A stretch of DNA of 64,000 bases, taken from Rhodopirellula bahusiensis (lineage in GTDB: Bacteria > Planctomycetota > Planctomycetia > Pirellulales > Pirellulaceae). Of the stretch, positions 7,955 through 57,148 are shown in pieces. Within the stretch, counting starts at the first letter, position 1; the number at the start of each line of letters is the position of its first letter. The position numbers were made by a program, and so were the translations under genes. The notes below the pieces were generated by a model that saw nothing but the letters and a program-made list of their open reading frames with translations, was not told the origin of the DNA and searched no databases. The stretch spans positions 1 to 64,000 of the forward strand of contig NZ_NIZW01000010.1 in assembly GCF_002727185.1 (NCBI RefSeq), written 5' to 3'.

Positions 7955-9082
7955 ATGAACCAATCAGTTGCCCAATGGTTCGCGGGTTTGTTGATGACCG
8001 GATGCCTCGCCATTCCGGTCTATGCTCAAGACGCGATGCAGGTCGAAGACTTTGATTCGATCGAGCTTTACACTCTGGAAAACAAGTCCGGTGCGAAGGT
8101 TCAGATCACAAACTTTGGCGCAATCGTGACATCGATTGTGGTTCCAGATCGTGATGGAGAAATGGGCGATGTTGCGTTGGGTTACGACTCAGTTGAAAGC
8201 TACATCAATGCGGTCGACAAGCCTTACTTTGGTGCCATCGTTGGACGTTATGGCAACCGAATCGCCAACGGTGAATTCTCGTTGGATGGCGAGAACTATT
8301 CGTTGGCGACCAACAATGGTCCCAACCATTTGCATGGTGGTGTGATCGGGTTCGACAAAGTCGTTTGGGATGCCGAGCCGACCGCGGTGGATGGCAAACC
8401 AGCACTCAAGATGTCGTACTTGGCCAAAGACGGTGAAGAAGGCTATCCGGGCAACTTGAACGTTGTGGTCACCTACCAATGGACGGATGAGAACAAGTTG
8501 ATCGTCCGATACGAAGCGACCACGGACAAAGCCACGCCGATCAACCTGACTCAGCACACCTACTTCAACTTGGCGGGTGAGGGCAACGGAACGATTCTTG
8601 ATCACGAACTGATGTTGAACGCGTCGAAGTTCACTCCGGTTGATTCGACGTTGATTCCCAACGGTGAGTTACGTGATGTGGAAGGAACGCCGTTTGATTT
8701 TCGCAAAGCAAAGTCGATCGGACGCGACGTCGGTGTCGAGAATGAACAACTCAAGTTCGGTTTGGGATACGACCACAATTTCGTGTTGAATGCGTCCGAT
8801 GAGTCGGGCGAGCTGACGTTGGCCGCTCGTGTGTCCGAGCCAACGACCGGCCGCATGATGGAGATTCACACTAGTGAGCCGGGAATCCAATTCTATTGCG
8901 GAAACTTCTTGGACGGTCGGCTGGAAGGGAAGTCTGGCAAGCCTTACGTGCATCGTGGGGGTTTCTGCTTGGAGACCCAGCACTATCCAGACAGTCCCAA
9001 CCAACCTTCATTTCCATCGTCGATTTTGAAGCCGGGTGAGAAGTACGACACGACCACCGTGTTCCACTTTTCCGCGAAATAG
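7955..9082 (+). CDS. galM: secreted aldose 1-epimerase (galactose mutarotase)
   Basis: The enzyme interconverts alpha and beta anomers of aldoses. The product is 375 residues. A signal peptide (about 1-24, ending VYAQ) sends it to the periplasm, unlike cytosolic GalM. Family motifs are in order: VGRYGNRIANG, NGPNHLHGG (substrate His), LTQHTYFNLAG (catalytic His), GYDHNFVL, and near the C-terminus GIQFYCGNFLDG and CLETQHYPDSPN with the catalytic Glu. A GGAG ribosome site precedes the ATG. The position behind the symporter suggests that sugars are equilibrated to the transported anomer before uptake. A strong stem-loop follows at 9106-9144. Confidence 0.95.
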   Translation: MNQSVAQWFAGLLMTGCLAIPVYAQDAMQVEDFDSIELYTLENKSGAKVQITNFGAIVTSIVVPDRDGEMGDVALGYDSVESYINAVDKPYFGAIVGRYGNRIANGEFSLDGENYSLATNNGPNHLHGGVIGFDKVVWDAEPTAVDGKPALKMSYLAKDGEEGYPGNLNVVVTYQWTDENKLIVRYEATTDKATPINLTQHTYFNLAGEGNGTILDHELMLNASKFTPVDSTLIPNGELRDVEGTPFDFRKAKSIGRDVGVENEQLKFGLGYDHNFVLNASDESGELTLAARVSEPTTGRMMEIHTSEPGIQFYCGNFLDGRLEGKSGKPYVHRGGFCLETQHYPDSPNQPSFPSSILKPGEKYDTTTVFHFSAK

Positions 9083-9105
9083 TCGCTGTGGTCTTTGGAT
9101 GCATT

Positions 9106-9144
9106 GCGAATCGCTTGGAGGTCTTTGCCTCGAAGCGATTTCGC
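9106..9144 (+). terminator. long stem-loop after galM, possible terminator
   Basis: GCGAATCGCTT (9106-9116) pairs with AAGCGATTTCGC (9133-9144) with one bulge, and an inner GAGG/CCTC pair extends the stem. There is no following T run, so it may be a non-canonical terminator or an mRNA-stabilising hairpin. Confidence 0.5.
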
Positions 9145-9240
9145 GTTCCTGGACAGATCGATCCCTTCACCAATTGTGTCCTTTTCCGAAAGCTGCCATC
9201 ATTCTTAGAGGGAAACCCGTCTCAAGTCCGCGTCTCAGGA

Positions 9241-9585
9241 ATGACATTGGCCGCAAATCAATTTCAGCGAAATGACTGGGTGATCTACCGCAAACACAAA
9301 AGCAGTGTTTCGCCGGGACCACGTGCGTCAGACGTTCATGCCGCAGGAAAAGGCAACACCTACCGGTACGTTGTCGAAAAGTACTGGGTCGTGGAGGAGG
9401 TTCTTGACGACAGCCAATTGAAGATTTGCACCCGTCGTGGCAAACGCCATTTGGTGAACGCGGGCGATCGATCTTTGAGAAAGGCTCGTTGGTGGGAACG
9501 CCTTTTGTATCGAGGTCGATTCGAAGCAATCGACTTGAATTCGCCAGTCAGCTTGGAAGACGAGATCGGCAGCGCAACAAACTGA
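9241..9585 (+). CDS. small conserved planctomycete protein, unknown function
   Basis: A product of 114 residues starting MTLAANQFQRNDWVIYRK. It is rich in basic and aromatic residues (YRYVVEKYWVVEEV, TRRGKRHLV, ARWWERLLYRGRF), without signal peptide or membrane segment. The repeated W/Y/R pattern suggests a small beta-barrel of SH3 or Tudor type that may bind nucleic acid or protein; that is inference. I recall similar proteins in other planctomycetes, but no function. AGGA immediately precedes the ATG at 9241. An earlier in-frame start at 9088 would run through the stem-loop at 9106-9144 and add residues without recognisable character. Confidence 0.65.
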   Translation: MTLAANQFQRNDWVIYRKHKSSVSPGPRASDVHAAGKGNTYRYVVEKYWVVEEVLDDSQLKICTRRGKRHLVNAGDRSLRKARWWERLLYRGRFEAIDLNSPVSLEDEIGSATN

Positions 9586-9601
9586 TCACACTCATGTGAT
9601 C
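9584..9601 (-). terminator. small hairpin between convergent genes
   Basis: GATCACA and TGTGATC around a 4-base loop. On the minus strand it is followed by AGTTTGTT, so it could terminate the Aas-like gene. The stem is only 7 bp. Confidence 0.35.
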
Positions 9602-9644
9602 GGTTCGCGAATTCGATGCTCTTGCAGACATGTCGCTGAGCAAA

Positions 9645-11945
9645 TTAGCAGCTCGCCATCGTCAGCTCGCCGGCTCGGTCTCTGGCACCTTTGAGGTCCA
9701 GTTTGCCCGTTCCGAGCAACGGGATCTCGCTGACTTCGTAGAAGCTATCGGCTGATGGGATGAACAGGTTGGCCAACCCGGCCGCTTTCAATCCTTCTCG
9801 AAGTGAGTCCGGAGTTTGGGATGTTGGCAGGTGCAAGACGATGATTCGTTCACCCTTGCGATCGCAAGGAACTGCGGTGACACAAACACGAACTTGATCG
9901 TCGTCATCGCCTTCCGAAAGAAGTTTTCCGAGCTCTTCTTCGATTCGAACGTGTGGCACCATCTCGCCAGCGATTTTCGAAAAACGGCTCAGGCGACCGG
10001 TGATGTGCAAGAAGCCATCGCTGTCGATGTGGGCGATATCGCCGGTTGTGTACCATCCATCGACGACGGCAGTTTTGGTCAAGTCGTCTCGATTCGCGTA
10101 GCCTCGCATCACGTTGGGGCCGGTGACCAGCAGCATTCCATCTTCGTTCGCGTCCAGTTCGGTTCCATCATCGGGCGAAACGATTTTCGCTGAGATGCCA
10201 GGCAATGGACGTCCAACGCTGCCTTCGACTCGGTCGGGTTGAAACTTTGCCGCCGAACGCGAGGGCGGAATGTTTACGCTCACCAACGGGCTCATTTCCG
10301 TCGTGCCGTATCCTTCGACAGGACGCACGCCGAAACGTTTTTCGAAGGCGTCGAACAGGTCGGCTGGCATCTTCTCGGCTCCAACGACAGCGACGTCGAG
10401 GTTTTTGAACTGCTCCGGAGTGATGCGTCGCAGGTAACCTCGCATGAAGGTCGGTGTGCCGAGCAACACGGTGGCTTTGTACTTCTCAGCGAGCTTGCCG
10501 ATTTGCTTGGAATCCAAAGGATTGAAGTGATAGACACCCGCGGGCCCCAGTGTTTGTGCTGCCCACAAAGTGACCGCGTAGCCAAATGAGTGAAAGAATG
10601 GCAGCACACCGATGACGACGTCCTCGGTGTTGAGACGGATCGCACGATTGACCGCATCGACGTTGTGACTGACGTTCGAGTTGGACAGCAGCACGCCCTT
10701 GGGCATTCCAGTGGATCCGCTTGTGAAAATGACCGTCAGCAAATCATCGCTTTGGACTTTGTTGAGGCCCAGGATCCGATCGAGCAACCAGCTTGGAACG
10801 ATGGTCGCTTGCAATGCAGCGATGACCTTGTCGGCCAAGCTCACCTTCTCTTTGAGTTTGTCCAACGAGACGATCTCTGCATCCAGTTCCACATCGATCT
10901 TTTCGAGGAAGCGGTCGCTGGTCAGCACATGCTTGATGCCAACGTCGCGGATGCAGTGATTCATCACTTCGCTGCTGACGGTGTAGTTCAGGTTCGCACT
11001 GACGCGACGATCGGCAGCGAGTGCCACGTTCACCGCGACTGCACCCACGCTGGGTGGAAGCAAAATTCCAACGAACTGTTCGTCTTTCGCGAAGACTTCT
11101 CGACGAAGGCAACGACGAAGTGCCAAAGTGTTGATCAAAAGTTTTCGGCCACCGACTTCGGTGCCCAAAGTGTCAGCGGCTTGTAGTCGTTTGCCTCGGC
11201 GTCGCCAGACCCGCAGGACTTGTCGTGCCAACACAGGAAATTCGCGGCGGTGATCGATTTGGGCTTGGGAACCCAACGCTTGCACTTTGTTGCGAACGGC
11301 CGAGATGGGAGCATCGGCGGGAAATGGTTCACCGACATAAACCGTGATCGTGCGACGCAGTTTGTCTGGCCATTTCCAAAAATAGTTGCCGCCGGAGAAG
11401 CTGAATATGCTGCCCCACATTCCTTCCAAGTGAACCGGAACGATCTTCGCATCGGTGTTCTTCAGGATCTTGGTCATCCCTGGACGGAACGCTTGCAGTT
11501 GCCCGGTTCGGGTGATCGTTCCTTCGGGAAAAATCCCCACCACGTCGCCGTTGTTCAGTCCTTCTCGCGCGTCGCGGATGGCTCGCCCGATCGATTTCGG
11601 GCCGCCCATCATGAAGATCGTATCGAAGGCTCGACCGAGATAGTCACCGATCTTGGACGTGAAGTTTCCACCATCGACCACAAATCGAACGTTTCGCGGA
11701 AGAGCCCACAGAATCAAGATTCCGTCGATCCACGACATGTGGTTGCTGACCAAGAGGCAGCCGCCTTCGGCCGGAAAGTTCTCCAAACCCACGACTCGTT
11801 TTCGATAGAAAACTTCCAGCACCGGACGAAACAAGCAGCGAACAAAAAAACGCGGTTTCCAGACGGCTATGGCGATCGCGATGGCCAGCAAAGCGACTAG
11901 AACAATCAGGATGATTAAATATGTGTCCACCGTCAGCGGCTCCAC
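9645..11945 (-). CDS. aas: bifunctional acyltransferase / acyl-activating enzyme (Aas-like)
   Basis: A 766-residue fusion. A hydrophobic N-terminal helix (about 8-28) anchors it in the membrane. A PlsC-type glycerolphosphate acyltransferase domain follows (about 45-225) with the HX4D motif (His69, Asp74) and FPEGT at 139-143. An AMP-forming acyl-CoA/acyl-ACP synthetase domain (about 245-760) has the P-loop FTSGSTGMPKG at 407-417, GYGTTEMSP and YTTGDIAHID. E. coli Aas has the same order and re-acylates lysophosphatidylethanolamine, using ACP as acyl carrier. The same job, lysophospholipid repair or use of exogenous fatty acids, is likely here. It stands alone, convergent with the small gene to its left and divergent from the YceH-family gene. 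Confidence 0.88.
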   Translation of the reverse strand: MEPLTVDTYLIILIVLVALLAIAIAIAVWKPRFFVRCLFRPVLEVFYRKRVVGLENFPAEGGCLLVSNHMSWIDGILILWALPRNVRFVVDGGNFTSKIGDYLGRAFDTIFMMGGPKSIGRAIRDAREGLNNGDVVGIFPEGTITRTGQLQAFRPGMTKILKNTDAKIVPVHLEGMWGSIFSFSGGNYFWKWPDKLRRTITVYVGEPFPADAPISAVRNKVQALGSQAQIDHRREFPVLARQVLRVWRRRGKRLQAADTLGTEVGGRKLLINTLALRRCLRREVFAKDEQFVGILLPPSVGAVAVNVALAADRRVSANLNYTVSSEVMNHCIRDVGIKHVLTSDRFLEKIDVELDAEIVSLDKLKEKVSLADKVIAALQATIVPSWLLDRILGLNKVQSDDLLTVIFTSGSTGMPKGVLLSNSNVSHNVDAVNRAIRLNTEDVVIGVLPFFHSFGYAVTLWAAQTLGPAGVYHFNPLDSKQIGKLAEKYKATVLLGTPTFMRGYLRRITPEQFKNLDVAVVGAEKMPADLFDAFEKRFGVRPVEGYGTTEMSPLVSVNIPPSRSAAKFQPDRVEGSVGRPLPGISAKIVSPDDGTELDANEDGMLLVTGPNVMRGYANRDDLTKTAVVDGWYTTGDIAHIDSDGFLHITGRLSRFSKIAGEMVPHVRIEEELGKLLSEGDDDDQVRVCVTAVPCDRKGERIIVLHLPTSQTPDSLREGLKAAGLANLFIPSADSFYEVSEIPLLGTGKLDLKGARDRAGELTMASC

Positions 11946-16369: not shown

Positions 16370-17488
16370 TCACTGTTTTTGATCGTGAGTGCAGTCGGGA
16401 TCACGATCGACCGGCGTTCCGACTTGGTCGACGGGATGAGTGAAGAGGTATCGCCAGACCGCTTCGTGTTTGTACTCGCCGGTTTTGGGATCCTTGGCGG
16501 CCGAGCGTCCCGGTTGCACGCTGCTGTGGGCTCGTCTGGCGTCTCCGTTGACATCGAAGTCCGTGATCAAACGACGAGTGTGTCCGTAAGGAGGAGCTTG
16601 TTCGTCGACGTTGACAATCGGACCGAAAGCGTTGAGTCCGAGCATTTCCCAGCTGCGGCAATAGTGGTCATCGACCCAACCACCGTCCAACACGTGCGAG
16701 AACGCGAAGTAGCGGTTCGGCGGCGTTGCGGACGGAAGGGCTTGCCAGTTTTGATGCTGATCTCGCGGTCCACATAGGGCGACGACGCGAGCGACCCGTT
16801 GGTGCTTGGCGAATCGCGAAGCGGTGGTCGACCCGTGAGAGCTGCCGGCCACGATGACTTTGTCCCAGTTCAGGTCGGTTCGGTCTTCGTTGAAGAATTG
16901 GCCCCAGTTCCCGGGGGAGTTTTTCTCGGCCAGCCAACGGACAAACTGAAACGCTCGTTCCGACATCCCGTCCGGTTTAGCCAGGTCAACTTCGTCGGTG
17001 TAGTCCTCGCCCGTGGCGGCTTCCAATCGCATGTTCCCGCGACAGGTCGGCGGAACGGGAGTTTCCTGGCAACAAATACTGAACCACTTGTTGGCGTAGT
17101 GGACTCGGATCGCGTGCAGGCCATAGTCGCCCAATTTCTCGAACAACTGTGAATTGTGACCCATCAACCAGATCACCAATTGGCCTCGCGAATTGACGTT
17201 CGGATTGAACATCGCTTGTTGTTGATCTGCGGGTTTTCCCTTCGCATCCTCGATCAAAAAGTTGATTTCGGGGTACGCCTTCACCCGCGGATCGATCTCA
17301 GAAGCACGTGCTGTGATATGAAAACGTTCTTGTTTGGCGGCGTTTTCAACTGGCCCACGGGTTTGGGCTGTGACGATGGAAGGGAAGAGAAGGGCCCATC
17401 CGGCGAGTACGGCGGACGTGGCTGACAGACCAGAGGCTTTCAAGCGAGATTTTCGCGGCGAAGGAAATTTGAGTGTGAAACTCGGCAT
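16370..17488 (-). CDS. secreted alpha/beta-hydrolase-like protein (BPSS1187-like)
   Basis: A 372-residue protein. Its basic N-terminus and hydrophobic segment (about 17-41, ending VTAQT) form a signal peptide. The body contains VIVAGSSHGSTTASRFA, where G-S-S-H-G looks like the nucleophile elbow of a serine hydrolase, preceded by LVIWLMGHNSQ, which could hold the oxyanion-hole strand. Later segments HVLDGGWVDDHY and YGHTRRLI could supply the acid and base. I recall this as a BPSS1187-type family with unknown substrate. Four cysteines (ICCQ, PTCRG and others) suggest disulfides, consistent with export. It is divergent from the ABC permease. Confidence 0.75.
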   Translation of the reverse strand: MPSFTLKFPSPRKSRLKASGLSATSAVLAGWALLFPSIVTAQTRGPVENAAKQERFHITARASEIDPRVKAYPEINFLIEDAKGKPADQQQAMFNPNVNSRGQLVIWLMGHNSQLFEKLGDYGLHAIRVHYANKWFSICCQETPVPPTCRGNMRLEAATGEDYTDEVDLAKPDGMSERAFQFVRWLAEKNSPGNWGQFFNEDRTDLNWDKVIVAGSSHGSTTASRFAKHQRVARVVALCGPRDQHQNWQALPSATPPNRYFAFSHVLDGGWVDDHYCRSWEMLGLNAFGPIVNVDEQAPPYGHTRRLITDFDVNGDARRAHSSVQPGRSAAKDPKTGEYKHEAVWRYLFTHPVDQVGTPVDRDPDCTHDQKQ

Positions 17489-17793: not shown

Positions 17794-18933
17794 TTGACCT
17801 ACTTTGGTTTCGTGCTCAAAGGCCTGTGGCGGCGACCGCTGCGAACGGGACTGACGCTGATGGCCTTGGCCACGGCGATCGGTTCGGTGATGGCTTTGTT
17901 GGGCGTGGCCGAAGGGTTCACCGAATCATTTCGAGGCGTCTATGAATCGCACCGCGTCGACGTCGTTGTTTCACGGCAAGGATCGGCGGATCGGCTGAGC
18001 AGTTCGTTGGAAGAGGCTTATGTCGCGGACGTCACTTCGGTCGAAGGGGTCGCCGATGCGGCGGGAGTCTTGCTGGAAACTTTGTCAGCGGAAGACCAAC
18101 AGGTGTACGGAATACCGGCGATGGGGATGAGAACCGATTCGTGGTTGTTCACCGATTACGAAATGCGTGTTGCAGATCAAGAGACAATCGACAATGCCGA
18201 CGCAATTGGACAGGTCTTTCTGGGTGAGAATTTGGCCGGACGATTGGACTGTGAACCTGGTTCGACCCTGAACTTGTTCGATGAGCCATTCGAGGTCGCG
18301 GGAGTTTTCCAAAGCGGAAGCGTTTGGGAAAACGGATCCATGATCGTGCCGCTGCAGCAACTCCAGGAGTTGACCGGACGAGACGGCCAAATCACTTACA
18401 TCAACGTGGTATTGGATGAGTCCATCGAAGCGATCCAGGTCGGCTCGGTCGTGGAACGGATTACGGCGGTGGATGCGAAGTTGTTGCCGTTGGCCACGGA
18501 TGAATTCGTTCGATCGGACACGCGGATGCAACTGGCCGGCGCGATGGCTTGGATGACATCGACGATCGCACTCTTGGTCGGTGCAATCGGAACGCTCAAC
18601 ACGATGATGACCAGCGTATTGGAACGGACCGGCGAAATTGGAATCTTGCGAGCGATTGGGTGGCCGGCAAAACGAATCGCGGGCGTGATCCTTTGCGAGT
18701 CAGTGATGCTGGCGCTGTTGGCTTCGGTTTTAGGCGGAATCGGAGCGAGTGTGTTGTTGCAGCTGTTGGCGGGCAGCGAAGCGACAGGCGGAATGTTGCA
18801 ACCGACCATTGCCATGAATGTCTGGGTTCGCGGAGTGGCGGTTGGTTTGGGGATAGGAATTTTGGGGGCATCGTTGCCCATATGGCGTGCGTCGCAGATG
18901 CGACCGACGGATGCCCTCCGCCACCAAGGATGA
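17794..18933 (+). CDS. ABC transporter permease, MacB/FtsX-type
   Basis: A 379-residue membrane protein of the MacB/LolC/FtsX type. A first transmembrane helix (about 15-38, TLMALATAIGSVMALLG) is followed by an extracytoplasmic domain of about 210 residues, then three C-terminal helices (AMAWMTSTIALLVGAIGTLN; ILCESVMLALLASVLGG; GVAVGLGIGILGASLPIW). The sequence RTGEIGILRAIGWPAKRI is the coupling-helix region of this superfamily. The start is TTG at 17794 with AGG just upstream. No ATPase gene is next to it, so the partner must be elsewhere. It lies only 18 bases before the PKS-NRPS, which suggests that it exports that product or a related lipid. Confidence 0.87.
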   Translation: MTYFGFVLKGLWRRPLRTGLTLMALATAIGSVMALLGVAEGFTESFRGVYESHRVDVVVSRQGSADRLSSSLEEAYVADVTSVEGVADAAGVLLETLSAEDQQVYGIPAMGMRTDSWLFTDYEMRVADQETIDNADAIGQVFLGENLAGRLDCEPGSTLNLFDEPFEVAGVFQSGSVWENGSMIVPLQQLQELTGRDGQITYINVVLDESIEAIQVGSVVERITAVDAKLLPLATDEFVRSDTRMQLAGAMAWMTSTIALLVGAIGTLNTMMTSVLERTGEIGILRAIGWPAKRIAGVILCESVMLALLASVLGGIGASVLLQLLAGSEATGGMLQPTIAMNVWVRGVAVGLGIGILGASLPIWRASQMRPTDALRHQG

Positions 18934-18951: not shown

Positions 18952-21900
18952 ATGACAGCTACGAAACTTTTGAAGACAGGGACTGGCGTGAGGAACGAAC
19001 CACTTGCCGTTGTGGGCATCGGTTGCCGCTTCCCAGGGGATGCGAATGATCCGTCCTCCTTTTGGGATCTGTTGGCATCGGGAAAGGATGCCATCTCCAA
19101 AACGCCCGAGGACCGTTGGAACTTGCAGAAGTTCTATCGCCCTGGTGAGCCATTGCCGGGCAAAACCCAAAGCCAATGGGGCGGCTACGTTCGCGGCATT
19201 GACCAGTTCGATCCAACGTTGTTCGGGATCTCGCCTCGCGAAGCGGCAGCGATGGATCCGCAGCAACGCATGTTGTTGGAGGTCGCTTATCGGGCGATGG
19301 AAGACGGAGGTGCGCCGCTTGGATCGTTGGCTGGTCGCCCCGTCGCTGTGTTCACTGGCATCAGCAGCATTGATTATGCGGTCGCCAGTTTGAGCTTTGA
19401 AGATCGCGGTGAACTGGGGCCCTACACCAACACGGGATCCTCCAGCAGCATCGCAGCCAACCGTATTTCATATTGCTTTGATTTGCGAGGCCCGAGTGTT
19501 GCCGTTGATACCGCGTGTTCATCGTCCTTGGTTGCGCTTCACATGGCTTGCCAAGCGATTTGGAACGGCGAAGCCGAAACGGCGCTGGCCGGGGGCGTCA
19601 ACGCGCTGATCATGCCCGACTTCTATGTCGCATTCAGCCAACTTGGCGTGCTTTCGCCCGATGGTCGTTGCAAGACATTTGATTCGCGCGCCAACGGTTA
19701 TGCGCGGAGTGAAGGCGCTGGAATGGTGATGTTGAAACCACTCCGCGAGGCGCAGAAGGATGGCGACCGGATCTACTGTGCGATCCGAGCGACGGCTCTG
19801 AACCAGGACGGACGAACGCCTGGGTTGACCGTTCCGAGTGGCGAACAGCAAGAGCGTTTGGTCAAACGCACTTGCGAGTTGGCCGAGGTGGATCCCTCCG
19901 ACGTGCAATACTTCGAAGCTCACGGAACCGGAACCTCCGTCGGGGATCCAATCGAAGCAGGGGCTTTGGGGCGTGTCATCGCTTCGAGCAATCAAAACCG
20001 CGAATCGCCGTGTCGGATTGGTTCGGTCAAAACCAACATTGGCCACTTGGAGGCCGGTGCCGGAATCGCGAGCTTGATCAAAGTCGCGTTGTCGATGCAT
20101 CATCAAGCTATCCCGCCTCACTTGCATTTGCAGACGCCCAATCCAGAGATCGATCTTCGTGGTTGGAACCTGCGAATTCCGACTGAACTGGAGACTTGGA
20201 ATGCTGAGGGTGCGGCACGAATCGCGGGCATCAATGGGTTCGGTTATGGCGGAGCCAACGGCCATGTGATCGTCGAGGAAGCTCCAAGGCGTAAGAAATC
20301 GAGCGTTTCGGTTGTTGGTGGATCAGGTGAAGGTCATGCCGGATCGGAGCGGGGAAACAAACAAGAGCGGAGCACCAAGGCGATCGTTTTGCCTGTCTCA
20401 GCGACCGATCGCAAGTCGCTGGCGAAGGTTGCTGAGCATTGGAATGGATGGCTGACCAAACAAGCAGAATCTAACGACAAAAAACTCGACATGGCGGCGG
20501 TCGCCGCCGTCGCGGCTCATCAACGAACGCATCATGACGTCCGCACTTTGGTCCTCGGCGATGATCTGGAATCGCTGCAAGACGAACTGAGCCATTTGTC
20601 CAAATCGTTGTTGACCGACGGAAGCACGAACGAAGCTCCCGCCGTACCGTCACGATTGCCCAGCGAAGATCGATCCAAGGGGATTGTGTTTTTGTGCTGT
20701 GGTCAGGGACCGCAGTGGTGGGCGATGGGACGTGGGCTTTATCGAGACAACATGGTGTTTCGGCAGACCATCGAGCGGATCGACGGTGAGTTTCAAAAGC
20801 ATGTGTCGGATTGGTCGCTGATCGAAGAGCTTCATCGCGACTCGGAAACGACTCGCATGAATCGCACTTCGATTGCGCAGCCAGCTTTGTTTGCAATTCA
20901 AGTCGCTCAAGCCGCCATGTGGGCTTCGGTGGGTGTGCGGCCGAGTTTGATCATCGGGCACAGCGTCGGCGAGATCGCGGCGGCTCACTTGTCTGGTGGG
21001 TTGGATTTCGCGGACGCTTGCCGAGTGGCGATTCATCGCGGCCGGACGATGGATTTGGCAACCAGTCGTGGTGCGATGATCGCAGTGGGGCTGACTGAAA
21101 AGGAAGCCGAACGAAGGATCGCGAATCTTGCGAGTGTTGATCCACGAATGCCAGAGTCTGTTGCCATCGCGGCGGTCAACGGTCCCGCTTCGATCACTTT
21201 GTCCGGTGACAGCGACGCGATCGAACGCTTGGCGACTTCGATTGAAGACGATGGGATCTTCTGCAGGCGTTTGGCGGTGGAGTATGCATTCCACAGTCCG
21301 CAAATGGATCCGGTTCGCGACGAATTGTTGCGATCGCTCGACGGGATACAGACTCGGCCTCTGCACACCCCGATGATTTCGACAGTGACGGGACGAGCGA
21401 TCGTCGAATCGGATTCCTTGGCGGGTGATTATTGGTGGACCAATGTTCGGAATGGCGTTCGGTTTGCCGACGCGGTGATGACGGCTGCCGAAGCGGGTCA
21501 CGGAGTCGGCATTGAGCTTGGGCCGCACCCGGTGTTGGCTTTCGCGACGACGGAATGCTATGGCCACACGACCCAGAACATCCAGTTGATTGCGACGGCC
21601 CGTCGACCGAAGTCGGATGGAAGTTCGAGTGATTCGGAGTTGTTTGACGAGGACGAAAACCAGTGGCTCGATGGAGTCAGCGACCTGTTCTCATACGGGT
21701 TTGATCTCGACTGGTCTGGATTGGTTCCACGGCCAAGTGAACGAGCGGAGTTGCCGCTCTATCCAATGCAGCGACAATCGTTGTGGCAAGAATCCGAGCA
21801 ATCGCATCGTTGTCGTTTGACGGCGTCTGCGCACCCATTGCTCGGTGACGCCGACCCATCAGCCGACCCCGTTTTTCGCGGCCGAGTTGATGGCGACAAT

Positions 21901-24900
21901 CAAGCCTATTTGCTCGATCACCGCGTTCGTAGCGCAGCGATGTTCCCGGCGGCGGCCGGAATCGAGATGGCTTTGTCGGGAACGCGGTCGGTGTTGTCGC
22001 GGGCCAGCGAAGTGGTGGGCGATCCCGAACCAACGCGGATCCGGCTTCAGCGATTGCAGTTGCTCAATGCGTTGATCTTGGACGAATCACAGCCGCACCG
22101 ACTGGAAACCTCGTTGGCCGGTGATCGTCGCTCGATTGGAATTCGATATGGCGAGATTCCCGGCGATGCGTGGACATCATTGCTAGCGGCAACCCACGGG
22201 ACTCCTTCGCCGATCGATGGTGATGCCAAGCGAGCGGACTTAGACGCGGGCCGAGCACGGTGTCAGCAAACATTCAGCACCGATGATTGCTATAAGTACT
22301 GCCGGTCCATTGGGTTGAACTACGGTTCCGCGTTCCAGGGCATTCGTGAAGGCGTTCGTCGCGATGGTGAGTCGATTGCTACGGTGCAGTTGGATGAGTC
22401 CGTTCGCACGCCCGCTTTTGATGCGGAGGGATCGCTGTATTTGGTGCATCCCGCTGTGCTGGACAGTTGCTTTCATGCGATGGTCGTTTGCGATCCGCTG
22501 TTCGGTCGTTCGCCGGGCGGGTTGTACTTGCCACATGAAATTGAAGACATCCAAGTCGATGTCGAGGCTATTGCATCAGCGGGACTGGATTGCCCGCTCA
22601 CCGTGCATGCGAAGATCCGCCTGAAAACGGAACATCGCCTCTTGGCGGATCTGGATCTCTATCTCGAAGACGGAACACACGTTGGATCGATTGTCGGATT
22701 TGAGAGCCGCCGGGTGGGCGCAGAGAGCGAACAGTCGACCAAGGATCTGATGTATCGGTATCGTTGGCAGGCCGACGAGTCGGAAGACGTTTCCATTGCA
22801 GCGGACGAGAGAATCGTCGTTTTCTCGCCGGCGGATTTGGCGGATGAGCTCGTTCGAGGTTGGGGGAAATCTCGCGAAGATTTCATTTGGGTGCATCCCA
22901 TCGATGATGCAACTCAACGAGCGGAACAGTTCAACGGTGGTGTTTCGGCTGACCCGAACTGTTATTGGGTCGACGCCGACGATCTGCAATCGTTTTCGCG
23001 GTTGTGGGATGAGCTTGGGATCAACAAGCCAGGCAACAACTGGCATTTGGTTTATTTGTGGGCCATCGATGCATTGGACCCGCTTTCTTTGGAAGCGATG
23101 TCGCCGAGAGACGCCAGCGATGCGCTGCGTGACAGCACGTTGATGACCACACGGGCTCCGCTGCACTTGGTTCAGAGCTGGGAAGCGATGTCCGATCGGC
23201 CTGCGAGCCGGTTCACCATCGTGACATTGGGGGCTCAGTCGGGCGACGAATTGGATCAGCCCGTTGCTGCGATTCAAATGCCTTTGGTCGGAATTGGCCG
23301 AGTGATCGTCAGCGAAATTGGATCGCTGCAAACGCGTCTAGTTGATTGCGACCCGGCTGCCAATTTTCCGTTGGAAGGTCTGGCGGCCGAGTGGGCTCGC
23401 GATGACTCAGAAGACGAAGTGATGCTTCGCGATGGCGTGCGTTATGTGCACCGTTTCGTGCCCGACACACATCGGGAATGTCAATTGACGCAGGTATCAC
23501 CGGGCGAGCGACCTGCGTGCCGTTTGACGAAAGGGGCTGCATCGGGCGTCGATGAATTGAAGCATCAAGCCTATGGCCGGACCGCTCCAAATGTGGGCGA
23601 AGTTGAAATAGAGGTCGCTGGAGCGGGGTTGAACTTCAGTGACGTGATGAAGGTGCTGGACTTGTATCCTGGGTTGCCACCCGGGCCAGTTGCGTTGGGC
23701 GCGGAAGTCAGCGGCACCGTCACGGCAGTTGGAGAACGGGTCGACGAATTCGCGATTGGCGATGAAGTCATTGCGGTCGCACCCGGTGGATTCGCGACGC
23801 ATGTGCTGGTCAACGCCGCGTTGGTGGCCAAAGCTCCCGAGGCAATTGACCTTGTCGATGCGTCGGCGATCCCGGTGGCATGGTTGACGGCGGACCATGC
23901 AATGAGCACTTGTGCTCGGTTGAGGAACGACGAGTCGATCTTGATTCATGCCGCCAGTGGCGGTGTGGGGTTGGCTGCGATCGAGGTGGCTCAAGAGTTG
24001 GGCGTCGAAATTTTCGCGACAGCGGGGAGCGATCTCAAACGCGATCACGTGCGATCGATGGGCGTCGAGCACGTGCACGATTCTCGTTCGCTGAATTTTG
24101 TTTCCGAGATCGCGAATTTGACCGAGGCTCGTGGCGAACCGGGGATCGATGCGATATTGAATTCGCTTCCGGGTGAGGCGATTCCGGCTGGGATGAGTTT
24201 GCTTCGTGTCGGCGGCCGTTTCTTAGAAATCGGCAAACGCGATATCTATTCGGATCAGTCTTTGGGGATGTACCCGCTCCGCAACAACCTTGCTTTCTTT
24301 GCGATTGATCTGGATCAATTGTTTCAACAGCACGCCTTGCGAATGGGCAAGCGTTTGCGAGACGTGGTGCAAAAGTTCAATTCGCAAGTTTATCGCGGAC
24401 ATGTCCCCAAGCGATTCGAAGCTTCGGAGGCCACGGCCGCGTTCCGCTTCATGCAGCAGGCCAAGCACATTGGCAAAGTGATTGTCGACTACACCGCTCC
24501 ACCCGCCAAAGTGCGAGCACGCGATGAGAACGCAATTGAGTTTCGTGCTGATGGCACGTATTGGTTGGCTGGTGGACTGGGTGGTTTTGGTTTGCGAGTC
24601 GCGGATTGGATGTCCGAGTCTGGTGCCGGCACGTTGGTGTTGAGCGGCAGAAGCAAGACGATTCGCGAACAAGCCGTGCCGGTGATTGAGCAGATGCGAT
24701 CGCGAGGGACTCAGGTGGTTGTTCTGCCTTGCGATATCACCGATCCGGACGACATACAGCGGACGCTGGATCACATTGATGAAGAGTTGCCACCATTGCG
24801 TGGTGTGTTGCACACGGCGATGGTGCTGGAAGACAAGATGATCGTCGACTTGGACCGGGAGACCTTGGACCGTGTCTTGTGGCCAAAGGTTCTTGGTGGA

Positions 24901-27900
24901 TGGAATTTGCACCAAGCCACTCGCGATCGTGTGTTGGATCAGTTCATTTTGTTCTCGTCGTTGTCCAGTGTGTTTGGTCACGCCGGACAAGCCAATTACT
25001 CCGCGGCGAATGCGTTGCTGGACGGGTTGGCTCATCATCGCCGAGTGTCTGGATTGCCCGCGACGGTGGTCAATTGGGGACACCTCGGCGAAGTCGGCTA
25101 CTTGGCCGAGCGAGAAGAGTTGAGCGAGCGATTGAGACGCCAAGGTGTGCTTGATTTTTCGTCATCCGAAGCGACCGAATGCCTGGCTCGTGCGCTGCAT
25201 CGTGGAGCCACTCAGTGCAGTGTGTTGCGGATGGATTGGAGTCGCTGGCGAGGGTTGGGGTTGACCAAAGATGTCTCGCCTCGATTTGCACATTTGATTC
25301 GCGGAGGCAGCGACGCCGAGCAGACCATCAACGGTGAGTCACTGCGTCAGATCCCCGCTTCGGATCGTGAGCGGTGTTTGACCGAAGTCGTGTCGGTGAA
25401 GCTGGCTTCATTGCTGGGCGGCAACGTTGCGGAGTTGGATGCCGATCGGCCATTGCTGGAGATGGGGTTGGACTCGTTGATGGCGGTTGAGCTTCGCAAC
25501 TGGATCGAAGGCCAACTGCAACTGAAGCTGCAAATCGGCGCCTTGATGCGAGGATCGAGCTTGCGGTCGTTGATCGAGACGCTGAGCGAATCGTTGGCGA
25601 TGGAAACGGGCGACTCGGCTGGCGTGCCGATGCAGGTTGGTGCGGTCGCTCAAGAGGAAATCGCGGATGACCCGGCGATGCAAAATCGTCAGTGCTATCC
25701 GATGTCCGATCAGCAAACGGGGCTTTGGTACGCGTTTCGACGCAATCGAAACGGGACGGCATTCAACGTCTTCCTGCCGACTCGTTTGAGGTCACCGCTG
25801 GATGTCGAAGCGTTGCAGAAGTCGATGGAAAGTGTCGTGCAACGCCACGCGGCGTTGCGAACGACTTTCACTGATTCTTCTGGTGAGCTTCAGCAAATTG
25901 TGCATGACGAATTAAAGCCGGAGTTTGTTGTTGAGGATTGGTCAACGACGAACGGGCGCGTCAGAGATGAAGATGAGTTGCTTCAATCGGTGATCGAGGA
26001 AACCCAGCGACCGTTTGATTTGCAGAACGGACCGATGATGCGAACGCGTCTGTTCCGATTGGCGGAAGACGATTGGGTTGTTGTCGCGACGACGCATCAC
26101 ATCGTGGTCGATTTTTGGTCGTTGATTTTGATTTTGGGTGAGATCAAACAGTTCTACCCGCAGTTTCTGTCCGGCGACGTTCCCGCCATTGTTCCGCCGG
26201 AAAAAGACTACTTTGAGTTGGTCCTGCGTCAGCGTCACTTGTTGAATTCGCAACGAGGCCAATCTTTGAAAGAGTATTGGGCGTCGACGCTGGCGGATGT
26301 ACCCAAAGTACTGGAAGTGCCTACCGATCGCGTTCGTCCGACCACGTTCACTCAGGCTGCCAAAGTCGTTGGGATCGAATGCGGTGATGAAGTCGGTGCG
26401 GCGATCAATCAAGTTGCCAAACAGGCTCAAGTGACATCCTCATCGGTGGTCATGGCGGCTCTTCAGGTGATGTTGAAACAGGCCAGCGGACAAGAAAAGT
26501 TTGTTATCGGAAGTCCATTCGCGGGAAGAACGTATTCGGACTTGGAAGACACAGTTGGGTTCTTCGTGAATATGTTGCCGTTGGTCGCGGACGTTTCCGG
26601 CAACCCATCGTTCGTCGATTTGGTGCGGCGTGCAGGCGATCGCTTGGTCGATTCGATGCAGAACGAAGAGTATCCGTTTGCCCAAATTGTCCGTGATGTG
26701 GATCCGCCACGAGACACAGGACGAAGCCCACTGATTCAAGTTTCTTGCACGTTTGAGAAAGCTCATGTGCGAGAGGAGGAAGGTCGTGCGGGTTACTTGT
26801 TCCCGTCGGCGACTGAAGTCAAAGAAGTGGCGGGATTGAGGCAGGAGAGTTTCCCCGTCCCGCATCAAACCTGTCATTACGATTTGGAGTTCATCTTCGA
26901 AATGACAGGCGATCACCTCGTCGGGATGATCGTCTATTGCGAGGATTTGTACGAAGCCGACACCATGCGGGCGATGTCAGATCAGTTCGTTGCGTTACTC
27001 GCAAAGTTGGTTGCCGACCCGAATGCGTTGATCGAAACGGTCCAGGCTGTTGAGACTGCCAAGTCTGGCAAAGTGCAATCGAATGGATTGCGAAACGGTG
27101 CTGCGAGGAACGAACCTCAGACGTTAAACGCCTTGATCGTCGATGGTGCGAATAGGCCAACCAAGGTGGCGACCTCAGATTCCCGAGAGAGCGTTTCAGT
27201 TGGACACAACGGCGGTCGATCATTCAATCGGTTGTTCCGTTCGCCAAAATTGAAGCCAGCCAGTCCTTCGCTGCCGGGGACATCCGATCCAGTTGTTCCG
27301 GGTTCGATGGCGACTCGAGAGGTGATTGCTCGGAGTTTGCGATCGCATCACGTGGAAGCCGGCAATCACGTGCCTGTGCTCGCAAGGCCTGGGAAGCGGG
27401 CGATGGATTTGATTCTGTCCTTGCAGCAAATTGGGGCGATTCCAATTCCTTTGGACGCCACTCGGCCATCTGTGATGCTGGATTTGGTGCTTGAGCAAAC
27501 AGGTGCCAATACATTGGTCGTGGATGAGCCCATCGGCAATCGGACTTCTGGATTGCAGACGTTGACTTGGGACCAATTGACGAGTTCGCAGAACGGTGCA
27601 TCAAATGGGAACGGCAAGTCATCGGCCAATGGGAAATCCAAAACTCACGCTATCGTGCCGGATGACGCTGCCTATGTGATTTACACATCGGGGACGACTG
27701 GCGTGCCAAAGGGTGTCGTCGTTTCGCACGGTGCAATCGCGAATACGTTGCGTTGGCGCGGTCGGATCACGCCGTTGACTACCTCTGACAAAATGTTGAT
27801 GCCCTTGTCGCATCAGTTCGATGCGGGGTTGGGGATGACGCTGTTCGCTTATTCGCAGGGTGCCGAAGTGATTTGGCCGGACGCGGATCGAGTGGCCGAC

Positions 27901-29952
27901 ATCGACTCGGTCGTGGAGCAAATCATTCGCGACGAGGTGACGGTTCTGGTCGGGGTGCCGTCTTGGATCGATTTGATCGCGTCTCATCGTAAGTTCGCTC
28001 ACTGTCACTCACTCCGCCATGTTTGGATTGGTGGCGAGGCGATGCCGGAAAGTTTGCCACGGCTGATTCGTCGTAGCAGCGAAGCTCAGATTTGGAATTG
28101 CTACGGGCCAACCGAAGCCGCGGTGGAAGCGACCGCGTACCGCATCAACGATGTGAATTCTCGTCGTCGGATTCCAGTTGGTTTGCCTGCTGATCACACC
28201 GACGCAGTTGTGGTGGATGAGAACCGTCGTGAAGTCGCGCCGACGTTTGCGGGCGAAATTGCGTTGGTTGGAGCAGGTTTGGCGGACGGATATCTCGGCG
28301 ATGAAGGCTTGACCAAGCAACGATTCGTTACGTTGACGGACGGAAGGCGAGCCTACCTGACTGGTGATCAAGGCCGCCGCCGTGTTGATGGATTGGTCGA
28401 AGTGTTGGGACGCATGGATCGGCAGCTTAAAGTCGGTGGTTATCGCATCGAACCTACCGAAATCGAAACCATTCTGCGGGATCATCCCTCGGTCGCGCAG
28501 GTGGCCGTGGTGCCTCGCGAAATCGGTGACTCTGAGTCGACCAAGTTGATTGCATTCGTTCAGTTGGATGCGATTGACTCAGCGATGAAAGAGAACGCGA
28601 ACGGTCGGCCGGTACAACAGGCAGCTTGGAGTGACGTTGTGCTGTCATTGCAGCATCACGTTGCCGAGCATTTGCCGCCGTACAAGCGACCGGCGCATAT
28701 GCAACACGTCGAATCGTTCGTCATGACCGCGAGCGGAAAAGTGGATCTGAACGCTCTGCCCGAACTCGCGTTGGACGCATCTGATCTCACCGCTCATCAG
28801 CCTCCGAGAACCGATCTGGAGCGGCATCTTGCCGATCGGTGGACCGACGTGCTGGGAGTGCATTCGATTGGGATCAATCAGAGCTTCTTCGAGTTCGGCG
28901 GCAGTTCGCTTCAGGCGGCAATGTTGACGAACCGGTTGAGCGAAGATTTGGGCGTCGACGTTCCGTCTTCGCTGTTGTTCGATCTTGCCGATATTTCCGC
29001 AATGGCCGAACGGTTGGCTTCGCTCTATCCAAGCGAATTGTCACGTCGGTTCGGAGAGTCTTCGGTGTTGTTCTATGCCGACGAATCGAACCAGCGAAAT
29101 AACGGGCTGAATGAATTGCTGGCACCGCTCAAGGTCACTGGCGATCGGGCTCCGCTGTTCATGGTCCACCCACCCGGTGGGATCGTGGTGTGCTACCGAG
29201 AACTAGCGGCGCACCTTCCAGACGACCAACCGATGTACGCGATTCGAGCTCGGGGATTGCACGGAAAAGAGGAGTTGCCACCCACGATGCAGGCGATGGC
29301 AGCCGAATATGTCGAAGCGATTCGCTCGGTTCGACCCGAGGGACCTTATGTGATTGGCGGATGGTCGGTGGGCGGGGTCATTGCCATGGAAGTTGCGCAG
29401 CAATTGATCGCTGACGGGCACGAAGTCGACGGATTGATTCTGTTGGATTCGTCGATTCCAAGTGGCGCCAGCGATTTGGTTCCCGCCGAAGATCAAACCA
29501 ATGTGGGATTGGAATACGGCATTGATTTGTCGTTGGATGAGTTGTTGCAACTACCGAGTGAAGAGCAGTTGCCGTTCTTGTGGCAACACGCGGAAAAGCT
29601 GGGTGTGCTCGATCAAAACACGCCGGCCGACGTGGCCGCTCGGGCGATCGACGACTTGAAAACTTTGTTCCATCACCATTTGAAATTGACCACCCAGTAC
29701 AAGATGCAACCTATCCCGACGCGAATCGTTTTGTTCCGTCCGACGGACGTGCCGTTTGAAACCGAGGGCAGTGCTGATCGTGGATGGTCGCACCTGGCCC
29801 ATCGTGCGGACGTGATTTCGACTCCTGGCCATCACCACAGCATGGTGCAGGATCCTCACGTCAAGCAATTGGCCCAGTCAATTTGTGAAACGTTGGATTC
29901 GAGCGTTGTTTTAAGCGACGCGAATTCCAGCGTGAGTCACGCGGGTGGCTGA
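18952..29952 (+). CDS. hybrid polyketide synthase-nonribosomal peptide synthetase, one module each
   Basis: A 3666-residue megasynthase. Domains in order: KS (about 15-440; Cys189, His324, His365); AT (about 580-890; GHSVGE Ser671; YAFH 778-781, which favours malonyl); DH (about 945-1210; His990, Asp1171; the usual G in HxxxG is Ser); a non-catalytic linker (about 1250-1520); ER (about 1524-1835; NADPH motif HAASGGVG at 1666-1673); KR (about 1864-2045; GGLGG-type loop, Tyr2016); ACP (Ser2175); C (about 2245-2680; HHIVVDF at 2382-2388); A (about 2750-3270; TSGTTG near 2912, Asp2957); PCP (Ser3319); TE (GWSVGG Ser3472, His near 3627). Because the reducing set is complete, the chain can be fully saturated, and the C-A-PCP module would attach one amino acid before TE release. 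Lack of a loading module suggests iteration or an acyl starter delivered in trans. No phosphopantetheinyl transferase is in the window. Confidence 0.96.
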   Translation: MTATKLLKTGTGVRNEPLAVVGIGCRFPGDANDPSSFWDLLASGKDAISKTPEDRWNLQKFYRPGEPLPGKTQSQWGGYVRGIDQFDPTLFGISPREAAAMDPQQRMLLEVAYRAMEDGGAPLGSLAGRPVAVFTGISSIDYAVASLSFEDRGELGPYTNTGSSSSIAANRISYCFDLRGPSVAVDTACSSSLVALHMACQAIWNGEAETALAGGVNALIMPDFYVAFSQLGVLSPDGRCKTFDSRANGYARSEGAGMVMLKPLREAQKDGDRIYCAIRATALNQDGRTPGLTVPSGEQQERLVKRTCELAEVDPSDVQYFEAHGTGTSVGDPIEAGALGRVIASSNQNRESPCRIGSVKTNIGHLEAGAGIASLIKVALSMHHQAIPPHLHLQTPNPEIDLRGWNLRIPTELETWNAEGAARIAGINGFGYGGANGHVIVEEAPRRKKSSVSVVGGSGEGHAGSERGNKQERSTKAIVLPVSATDRKSLAKVAEHWNGWLTKQAESNDKKLDMAAVAAVAAHQRTHHDVRTLVLGDDLESLQDELSHLSKSLLTDGSTNEAPAVPSRLPSEDRSKGIVFLCCGQGPQWWAMGRGLYRDNMVFRQTIERIDGEFQKHVSDWSLIEELHRDSETTRMNRTSIAQPALFAIQVAQAAMWASVGVRPSLIIGHSVGEIAAAHLSGGLDFADACRVAIHRGRTMDLATSRGAMIAVGLTEKEAERRIANLASVDPRMPESVAIAAVNGPASITLSGDSDAIERLATSIEDDGIFCRRLAVEYAFHSPQMDPVRDELLRSLDGIQTRPLHTPMISTVTGRAIVESDSLAGDYWWTNVRNGVRFADAVMTAAEAGHGVGIELGPHPVLAFATTECYGHTTQNIQLIATARRPKSDGSSSDSELFDEDENQWLDGVSDLFSYGFDLDWSGLVPRPSERAELPLYPMQRQSLWQESEQSHRCRLTASAHPLLGDADPSADPVFRGRVDGDNQAYLLDHRVRSAAMFPAAAGIEMALSGTRSVLSRASEVVGDPEPTRIRLQRLQLLNALILDESQPHRLETSLAGDRRSIGIRYGEIPGDAWTSLLAATHGTPSPIDGDAKRADLDAGRARCQQTFSTDDCYKYCRSIGLNYGSAFQGIREGVRRDGESIATVQLDESVRTPAFDAEGSLYLVHPAVLDSCFHAMVVCDPLFGRSPGGLYLPHEIEDIQVDVEAIASAGLDCPLTVHAKIRLKTEHRLLADLDLYLEDGTHVGSIVGFESRRVGAESEQSTKDLMYRYRWQADESEDVSIAADERIVVFSPADLADELVRGWGKSREDFIWVHPIDDATQRAEQFNGGVSADPNCYWVDADDLQSFSRLWDELGINKPGNNWHLVYLWAIDALDPLSLEAMSPRDASDALRDSTLMTTRAPLHLVQSWEAMSDRPASRFTIVTLGAQSGDELDQPVAAIQMPLVGIGRVIVSEIGSLQTRLVDCDPAANFPLEGLAAEWARDDSEDEVMLRDGVRYVHRFVPDTHRECQLTQVSPGERPACRLTKGAASGVDELKHQAYGRTAPNVGEVEIEVAGAGLNFSDVMKVLDLYPGLPPGPVALGAEVSGTVTAVGERVDEFAIGDEVIAVAPGGFATHVLVNAALVAKAPEAIDLVDASAIPVAWLTADHAMSTCARLRNDESILIHAASGGVGLAAIEVAQELGVEIFATAGSDLKRDHVRSMGVEHVHDSRSLNFVSEIANLTEARGEPGIDAILNSLPGEAIPAGMSLLRVGGRFLEIGKRDIYSDQSLGMYPLRNNLAFFAIDLDQLFQQHALRMGKRLRDVVQKFNSQVYRGHVPKRFEASEATAAFRFMQQAKHIGKVIVDYTAPPAKVRARDENAIEFRADGTYWLAGGLGGFGLRVADWMSESGAGTLVLSGRSKTIREQAVPVIEQMRSRGTQVVVLPCDITDPDDIQRTLDHIDEELPPLRGVLHTAMVLEDKMIVDLDRETLDRVLWPKVLGGWNLHQATRDRVLDQFILFSSLSSVFGHAGQANYSAANALLDGLAHHRRVSGLPATVVNWGHLGEVGYLAEREELSERLRRQGVLDFSSSEATECLARALHRGATQCSVLRMDWSRWRGLGLTKDVSPRFAHLIRGGSDAEQTINGESLRQIPASDRERCLTEVVSVKLASLLGGNVAELDADRPLLEMGLDSLMAVELRNWIEGQLQLKLQIGALMRGSSLRSLIETLSESLAMETGDSAGVPMQVGAVAQEEIADDPAMQNRQCYPMSDQQTGLWYAFRRNRNGTAFNVFLPTRLRSPLDVEALQKSMESVVQRHAALRTTFTDSSGELQQIVHDELKPEFVVEDWSTTNGRVRDEDELLQSVIEETQRPFDLQNGPMMRTRLFRLAEDDWVVVATTHHIVVDFWSLILILGEIKQFYPQFLSGDVPAIVPPEKDYFELVLRQRHLLNSQRGQSLKEYWASTLADVPKVLEVPTDRVRPTTFTQAAKVVGIECGDEVGAAINQVAKQAQVTSSSVVMAALQVMLKQASGQEKFVIGSPFAGRTYSDLEDTVGFFVNMLPLVADVSGNPSFVDLVRRAGDRLVDSMQNEEYPFAQIVRDVDPPRDTGRSPLIQVSCTFEKAHVREEEGRAGYLFPSATEVKEVAGLRQESFPVPHQTCHYDLEFIFEMTGDHLVGMIVYCEDLYEADTMRAMSDQFVALLAKLVADPNALIETVQAVETAKSGKVQSNGLRNGAARNEPQTLNALIVDGANRPTKVATSDSRESVSVGHNGGRSFNRLFRSPKLKPASPSLPGTSDPVVPGSMATREVIARSLRSHHVEAGNHVPVLARPGKRAMDLILSLQQIGAIPIPLDATRPSVMLDLVLEQTGANTLVVDEPIGNRTSGLQTLTWDQLTSSQNGASNGNGKSSANGKSKTHAIVPDDAAYVIYTSGTTGVPKGVVVSHGAIANTLRWRGRITPLTTSDKMLMPLSHQFDAGLGMTLFAYSQGAEVIWPDADRVADIDSVVEQIIRDEVTVLVGVPSWIDLIASHRKFAHCHSLRHVWIGGEAMPESLPRLIRRSSEAQIWNCYGPTEAAVEATAYRINDVNSRRRIPVGLPADHTDAVVVDENRREVAPTFAGEIALVGAGLADGYLGDEGLTKQRFVTLTDGRRAYLTGDQGRRRVDGLVEVLGRMDRQLKVGGYRIEPTEIETILRDHPSVAQVAVVPREIGDSESTKLIAFVQLDAIDSAMKENANGRPVQQAAWSDVVLSLQHHVAEHLPPYKRPAHMQHVESFVMTASGKVDLNALPELALDASDLTAHQPPRTDLERHLADRWTDVLGVHSIGINQSFFEFGGSSLQAAMLTNRLSEDLGVDVPSSLLFDLADISAMAERLASLYPSELSRRFGESSVLFYADESNQRNNGLNELLAPLKVTGDRAPLFMVHPPGGIVVCYRELAAHLPDDQPMYAIRARGLHGKEELPPTMQAMAAEYVEAIRSVRPEGPYVIGGWSVGGVIAMEVAQQLIADGHEVDGLILLDSSIPSGASDLVPAEDQTNVGLEYGIDLSLDELLQLPSEEQLPFLWQHAEKLGVLDQNTPADVAARAIDDLKTLFHHHLKLTTQYKMQPIPTRIVLFRPTDVPFETEGSADRGWSHLAHRADVISTPGHHHSMVQDPHVKQLAQSICETLDSSVVLSDANSSVSHAGG

Positions 29953-30889
29953 ACTGACGAATGACACGCACAGCCGTGATCTCAAGATCGGATTGGTGTG
30001 CGCGCTGCTGGCTCACACAATGTGGGGCTTGTTTCCGATTTACTGGCGACAAATCGGCGGCGCAGATTCCTTGGAGTTGGTTTGCCACCGAGTTGTTTGG
30101 TCGTTTGTAACGCTCGGTTTGGTGTTGCCCGTGATGTTATGGCGGGGCCGTTGGGGCGGGTTCTCGGCTGTCTTCCGCGAACTTCGAAGTCGTCGCGTGT
30201 GGACGATTTATGTCATCGCCGCTGTCATGATTGCGATCAATTGGTTGGCGTTCATTTGGGCGGTCAACAACAATCGCGTGTTAGAAGCATCGCTGGGGTA
30301 TTACATCAACCCGCTGCTGAACGTGGTGCTTGGGGTCGTCGTCTTGGGCGAGCGACTTCGGTGGCCGCAGTGGATGGCGGTTGGGTTCGCAGCCATTGGT
30401 GTGTCGGTGATGGCGATCGGCAATGGAGGTTTGCCATGGGTTTCGATGGCCATGGCGACATCGTTTGCGATCTACGGCCTCGTGAAGAAGAAGGCCTCGC
30501 TTCCCGTGCTGCTTGGTTTGATGTTGGAGGTCACCGTGCTGGTGATTCCAGCAGCGATCTATCTGGGCATGAGATTGGCGGACGGCGTGTCCACGATGCA
30601 GACGGGCACATCGGTCGAGTTTGGGATGCTGCTCGGTGCTGGATTGATCACGATTGCGCCGCTGGCGTTTTTCGCAGCGGCTGTTCAACGAGTTGACTTG
30701 TCGTTGATGGGAATCTTGCAATACATCGGCCCGACGTTGCAGTTCCTGGTCGGCTATGTCCTGTTTGGTGAGACGCTCGACACGTCGCGCAAGATTGGCT
30801 TCGTTTTCGTGTGGACAGGGTTGCTGATCTTTTTGGTCGCATCCCAATTCAAACGACGAAGATCGACATTGGTCGCGGAAGCAACTTAA
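29945..30889 (+). CDS. rarD: RarD-type DMT/EamA transporter
   Basis: A 314-residue protein with ten hydrophobic segments in two EamA repeats. The opening GLVCALLAHTMWGLFPIYWRQ and the blocks AINWLAFIWAVNNNRVLEASLGYYINPLLNV and LGAGLITIAPLAFFAAAVQRVDLSLMGILQYIGP are typical of RarD (split here only for naming; each is a separate block). The start is GTG at 29945, inside the last codons of the PKS-NRPS, an 8-base overlap that implies translational coupling. Substrates of RarD are not well established. The coupling makes export of the PKS-NRPS product or an intermediate a reasonable inference, together with the upstream ABC permease. Confidence 0.9.
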   Translation: MAELTNDTHSRDLKIGLVCALLAHTMWGLFPIYWRQIGGADSLELVCHRVVWSFVTLGLVLPVMLWRGRWGGFSAVFRELRSRRVWTIYVIAAVMIAINWLAFIWAVNNNRVLEASLGYYINPLLNVVLGVVVLGERLRWPQWMAVGFAAIGVSVMAIGNGGLPWVSMAMATSFAIYGLVKKKASLPVLLGLMLEVTVLVIPAAIYLGMRLADGVSTMQTGTSVEFGMLLGAGLITIAPLAFFAAAVQRVDLSLMGILQYIGPTLQFLVGYVLFGETLDTSRKIGFVFVWTGLLIFLVASQFKRRRSTLVAEAT

Positions 30890-57040: not shown

Positions 57041-57148
57041 GTTCTAACGATCCTTTCGAAAGTCAACTAGTCAAAAAGCGTTTTGCGTGCCCTGTGTTCA
57101 CGCTAACGGCTTCTAAGTGGGTTCATTTTTGCATTTCGAGGTTTTTGC

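Follow-up and report, generated by a model that had tools for sequence, protein, structure and literature searches.

A single-chain PKS-NRPS of Rhodopirellula bahusiensis is an intact orphan synthase under purifying selection

The window that we analysed, 64,000 nucleotides of the marine bacterium Rhodopirellula bahusiensis (contig NZ_NIZW01000010.1, positions 1 to 64,000), encodes a real and intact orphan PKS-NRPS that is under selection and is built of ordinary parts. The locus lies on contig C10 of a genome of 7.78 Mb in 63 contigs, here called G000, and its ORF starts with ATG and runs for 3666 residues without an internal stop (Table 1). Ten Pfam domain models, each over its curated cut-off, follow one another along this one chain in the order KS-AT-DH-ER-KR-ACP-C-A-PCP-TE. 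The original prediction had described the same single chain, with every reductive domain, one amino-acid module, its own TE and no loading module, and the ORF reading and the Pfam scan agree with it throughout. The key catalytic residues are present in the domains checked, and the one change that had been pointed out, in the Gly of the DH motif, is indeed there, position 994 being Ser. With KS, AT and ACP followed by C, A and PCP on one chain, catalytic residues included, the protein is a type I PKS-NRPS hybrid; neither a loading module nor a methyltransferase was found in the chain by the Pfam scan.

Table 1. Features of the synthase and its surroundings (positions in the window; catalytic roles of the listed residues are presumed from the domain families)
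Feature	Position (strand)	Details
PKS-NRPS ORF	18952..29952 (+)	3666 aa
KS	18997..20292 (+)	aa 16-393, C-terminal extension to 532; C189/H324/H365
AT	20686..21606 (+)	aa 579-885; S671/H781; motifs GHSVG, YAFHS
DH	21832..22734 (+)	aa 961-1261; H990/D1171; Gly of HxxxGxxxxP = Ser994
ER	23542..24486 (+)	aa 1549-1845
KR	24553..25086 (+)	aa 1868-2045; S2003/Y2016/N2020
ACP	25390..25602 (+)	aa 2147-2217; S2175
C (condensation)	25687..27063 (+)	aa 2246-2704; H2383/D2387; HHIVVDFW
A (adenylation)	27325..28740 (+)	aa 2792-3263; D2957/K3263; by-eye code DAGVWGCVEK
PCP	28828..29016 (+)	aa 3293-3355; S3319
TE	29152..29883 (+)	aa 3401-3644, PF00975; S3472/D3499/H3628
MacB/LolC-type ABC permease	17794..18933 (+)	18 bases upstream of synthase; Pfam, NCBIfam
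RarD/EamA transporter	29945..30889 (+)	8-base overlap with synthase
BPSS1187-family gene	16370-17488 (-)	upstream of permease; an S49 peptidase takes this place in other genera
Aas-like acyl-ACP ligase/phospholipid acyltransferase	9645-11945 (-)	~5.8 kb from permease

The NCBIfam Pks2 model aligned end to end over residues 17-2216 of the synthase with 1174.8 bits, which misses its cut-off of 2400. The AMP-binding profile meets the A domain of the window only from its position 34, leaving its first 33 positions unmatched (in G023 the match starts at 1). Just before the matched A domain, in a C-A linker that otherwise changes fast, all six fused proteins of Rhodopirellula share the same 17 residues (FNRLFRSPKLKPASPSL, 27223-27273, plus strand). 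The genome holds two PF01648 carrier-protein-activating enzymes. AlphaFold models built from two sequences reached a mean pLDDT of 40.8 for the DH and 29.8 for the A domain, and a scan for promoters and terminators stayed near the shuffled expectation (3 promoters vs 5.1; 21 terminators vs 18.2).

Occurrence was followed with the NRPS half of the synthase as query. This half was found in 11 of 98 relatives (E up to 1e-100) and in 41 of 241 Pirellulaceae genomes from 11 of 68 genera (E up to 1e-110), a count that includes fragments as well as the distant G067 and G268; among 392 genomes drawn from the phylum, the only carrier was the window's own. The pathway is thus an orphan, here found within one family. 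Six of the 13 Rhodopirellula genomes carry the NRPS half, all six as a one-chain protein of 3665-3722 residues; one of them is Rhodopirellula europaea 6C (G006), the sole locus obtained from the one-protein contig scan. The five orthologues (3665-3722 residues) are 76-87 % identical to the window protein, and all six loci have the same gene order, that is, a gene matching the BPSS1187 model, the permease, the synthase and RarD, so that the synthase is more than a chance arrangement. The RarD gene overlaps the synthase by 8 bases also in loci L027, L028 and L031, and by 14 bases, judged by the longest ORF, in L029 and L030. The seven Rhodopirellula genomes without the NRPS half gave no synthase match among the ORFs in 12.7-19 kb around the permease. 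Elsewhere in the family, contig C58 of G250 holds two equal-score NRPS copies on opposite strands (8845-11349 and 55473-57977), which may stem from an inverted duplication or from the assembly.

Every domain of the synthase is under purifying selection. In five pairs among the six orthologues (Nei-Gojobori, own script), dN/dS was 0.05-0.16 for the DH, 0.03-0.07 for the ER and 0.02-0.04 for the KS, with linkers at 0.12-0.43; in pairs with G000, dS approaches saturation or exceeds it, and the close pairs G004-G006 and G002-G009 agree with these values. The highest value of any catalytic domain is that of the DH in G002-G009 (0.158). The DH His and Asp are kept in all 30 family PKS rows aligned, and 22 of these rows, the window's included, are without the Gly of the motif, which is retained in the two distant rows (G067 and G268) counted apart from the 30. 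Since only 8/30 family rows keep it, a change of this Gly is widespread among Pirellulaceae. A dead DH is disfavoured by the purifying selection and the invariant His and Asp, though the frequent lack of the Gly counts against a fully reducing module.

Comparison of gene layout across 18 + 20 + 11 regions showed that outside Rhodopirellula, G067 and G268 apart, the synthase is made in a two-gene form, with a PKS of 2177-2306 residues and an NRPS that, where complete, has 1356-1516. The two ORFs are usually adjacent and often overlap; in G035 they lie on different contigs, G115 and G110 have an NRPS with no PKS in the stretch compared, and in G234 the NRPS is in two ORFs. The pair of G023, the one scanned with Pfam, reads KS-AT-DH-ER-KR-ACP and C-A-PCP-TE. 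G067 and G268 have one-chain proteins of 3584 and 3817 residues with ~28-35 % identity, each adjoined by a gene for an AMP-binding domain and a carrier protein, which has the look of a fatty-acyl ligase. In FastTree trees (a quick method), built from 32 rows for the PKS and 37 for the NRPS, the six fused rows form one clade with full support in both; both trees are rooted by G067/G268, which are flagged as long branches in the NRPS tree, and they leave the family root unsettled around the fused clade. The ACP motif lies 207-210 residues from the C motif in the fused proteins of the six Rhodopirellula and 204 residues from it in G067. For 22 split pairs the distance is 257-342, a range that hinges on the choice of the longest ORF as start and whose high values are partly due to ORFs that overlap. 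The one-chain form of the Rhodopirellula clade is probably a fusion, a reading favoured because the split row G147 branches first in the NRPS tree and the fused rows stand among split ones. A one-chain ancestor that later split could also account for the pattern, because the outgroup G067/G268 is one-chain and the ACP-to-C distance of G067 is also short. Together, the two forms offer a natural pair of one- and two-protein assembly lines whose junction differs by ~50 residues or more, which is useful for engineering the PKS-NRPS joint.

The domain content points, with somewhat better than even probability, to a fully reducing type I PKS module resembling mycocerosic acid synthase (MAS) that would feed one NRPS module, the acyl-amino acid or a derivative of it being released by the TE. 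The PKS half, which has no loading domain, is probably iterative. Its AT, which by the YAFH motif we take to be of malonyl and not methylmalonyl type, would load malonyl units for condensation by the KS, and KR, DH and ER would reduce each unit, so that the ACP would come to carry an acyl chain that is largely saturated. The A domain would pick one alpha-amino acid to be held on the PCP, the C domain would join the acyl chain to it, and the TE would release a linear or cyclised N-acyl amino acid. We judge the original prediction to have been right in naming an N-acyl amino acid, or its lactam or ester, as the simplest product.

The choice of amino acid was approached through the A-domain pocket, whose positions were assigned by eye in 35 NRPS rows, guided by the motifs of gramicidin S synthetase, the distant pair being kept apart. 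The pocket ends, Asp and Lys, are conserved in 35/35 rows by this placement. A conserved pocket Asp marks an alpha-amino acid substrate, and its presence here suggests one. The six Rhodopirellula proteins share DAGVWGCVEK, a code that fits no substrate code known to us, and elsewhere the letters are mostly DAG-P-WG-F/L-V/I-EK, with E changed to Q in six rows (G252-G255, G257 and G258); going by these letters, not all clades may use the same amino acid.

A possible, though less probable, alternative to an iterating PKS is that the synthase receives a finished fatty acyl starter, either from an acyl ligase or from fatty acid synthesis, and extends it once or a few times before adding the amino acid. 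A single condensation on such a starter fits a chain without a loading module nearly as well as iteration does, and MAS, the nearest solved relative of the reductive half, extends fatty acyl starters. The gene beside the G067 and G268 synthases, with its fatty-acyl-ligase look, is of the kind expected; however, when the G067 ligase was searched against 41 loci, only G067 and G268 themselves gave strong matches, and no other locus scored above 69 bits. In the window itself the Aas-like gene could supply acyl-ACP, but it lies on the other strand, its model describes a phospholipid enzyme (875.7 bits, short of the 1221 set as cut-off), and it has no strong match in the other loci compared, the best being 27 % over 369 residues in L063.

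For the MAS-like, probably iterative reading that we prefer, the neighbouring permease may move the product, a weak link. The original prediction had proposed looking for a three-gene unit in related genomes, and the permease and synthase do travel together in 27 of 29 loci (21 split loci and the six of Rhodopirellula), but RarD adjoins the synthase in none but the six fused loci of Rhodopirellula. Upstream of the PKS the permease is present in 21 of the 23 split loci whose upstream side is visible, the exceptions being G106, with only a weak 112-residue match, and G218, where less than 900 bases were available. A divergent S49 peptidase adjoins the permease in 20 of these 21 split loci (the side is not covered in the 21st, G107) and in 0/6 Rhodopirellula loci. 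An ABC ATPase follows the NRPS in five genomes (G023, G137, G072, G214 and G215); it is LolD-like by eye and, in G023, matches Pfam ABC_tran. In G000, this ATPase has its best match (61 % identity) and the S49 peptidase its own (55 %) on contigs other than that of the synthase. Four loci also have an unnamed protein of 280-352 residues beside the ATPase (L035, 1724-2776, minus strand; L063; L064; L071), and the one scanned, that of L035, had no Pfam match. A second permease, 36-37 % identical and with one stop per matched stretch, was seen in G003:C34, G008:C123, G012:C274, G001:C2 and G010:C6; it is within ~6 kb of large PKS ORFs in G003, G008 and G012, and far from one on the same contig in G001.

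Permease and S49 peptidase occur in 13/13 Rhodopirellula genomes, the NRPS half in only six, so neither need belong to the pathway, and the case for a dedicated exporter is weakened. In the seven genomes without the NRPS half, the permease adjoins a gene that looks by eye like a transporter. It is a doubtful proposition that the PKS and NRPS make a Pirellulaceae-specific acyl-amino acid for the cell envelope, to be placed there by the MacB/Lol-type permease, together with the S49 peptidase and ABC ATPase that are encoded alongside in other genera, in the way that the heterocyst glycolipid PKS of cyanobacteria works with its own exporter.

It is improbable that the protein is a bacterial tetramate synthase, in which the TE would cyclise a beta-ketoacyl amino acid to a tetramic acid. 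Bacterial single-chain PKS-NRPS-TE proteins exist, and the synthases of HSAF-type polycyclic tetramate macrolactams, which are iterative, share this one-chain build, but the window synthase differs from them by an ER, which is under purifying selection, and there is no oxidoreductase among the eight neighbours scanned. To our knowledge, tetramate synthases lack an ER.

The original prediction had also seen a fungal likeness, which the comparison with solved chains, the only ones in the set, does not support as kinship; in each part compared, bacterial chains (CurL, MAS and PvdL among them) come out above the fungal PsoA and LovB. For KS-AT, scores over one stretch were 640 for CurL, 482 for psoA and 479 for LovB, and the NRPS half gave 390 for PvdL and 195 for psoA; summed over two stretches, the top scores were 701 for 7zma (KS-AT) and 508 for linear gramicidin synthase (NRPS half). 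The half from DH to ACP matched MAS with 410 bits, psoA with 127 and LovB with 111, and the top solved match of the TE alone was 7crn (102). The difference narrows when the KS is compared by itself (CurL 456, LovB 372, psoA 341), and some bacterial chains fall below LovB. Within this set MAS is the top solved relative of the reductive half, and the PKS of the window has the order KS-AT-DH-ER-KR-ACP of the mycobacterial MAS and Pks2, but it is joined to an NRPS module and a TE, its AT motif is malonyl-like, and the Pks2 cut-off is missed. Because relatives in the family make the unit as two proteins, we regard the single chain as a variant that belongs to bacteria, not as a fungal loan. Acquisition of a highly reducing PKS-NRPS from fungi, to which the domain order (like that of PsoA and LovB up to the PCP), the ER, the single NRPS module and the match of the ACP to a Pfam model that takes its name from sdgA, a highly reducing PKS, might point, is very improbable and is rejected on the scores, on the split homologues in other Pirellulaceae genera, and on the PF00975 thioesterase that stands where many fungal PKS-NRPS end in a reductase or Dieckmann domain.

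Among known systems, the bimodular NRPS-PKS of R. baltica SH1 is probably the same gene as the orthologue in G004, a genome that we take to be of this strain. That NRPS-PKS of R. baltica had already been counted, its product unknown (Donadio 2007, as cited in the accessible part of PMC4982196), so that the original description of the system as undescribed holds for the product only. The excerpt available of PMC2754498 has no evidence of expression of the R. baltica synthase, and antibacterial R. baltica extracts are not tied to a gene in the portion seen of PMC4990742. The stieleriacine pathway likewise gives N-acyl amino acids in Pirellulaceae; these N-acyl dehydrotyrosines are made by N-acyl amino acid synthases and not by a PKS-NRPS, as knock-outs in S. 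neptunia indicate (PMC12479983, in part), and their synthesis by the window synthase is rejected because NasY is responsible. The genome of S. maiorica has 9.9 Mb (PMC7293339, in part). No product assigned to the PKS-NRPS unit was found in the literature searched, which lay mostly outside subscription papers. The synthase provides a small, intact and conserved target for natural-product work on planctomycetes, with two-protein homologues in other genera for comparison.
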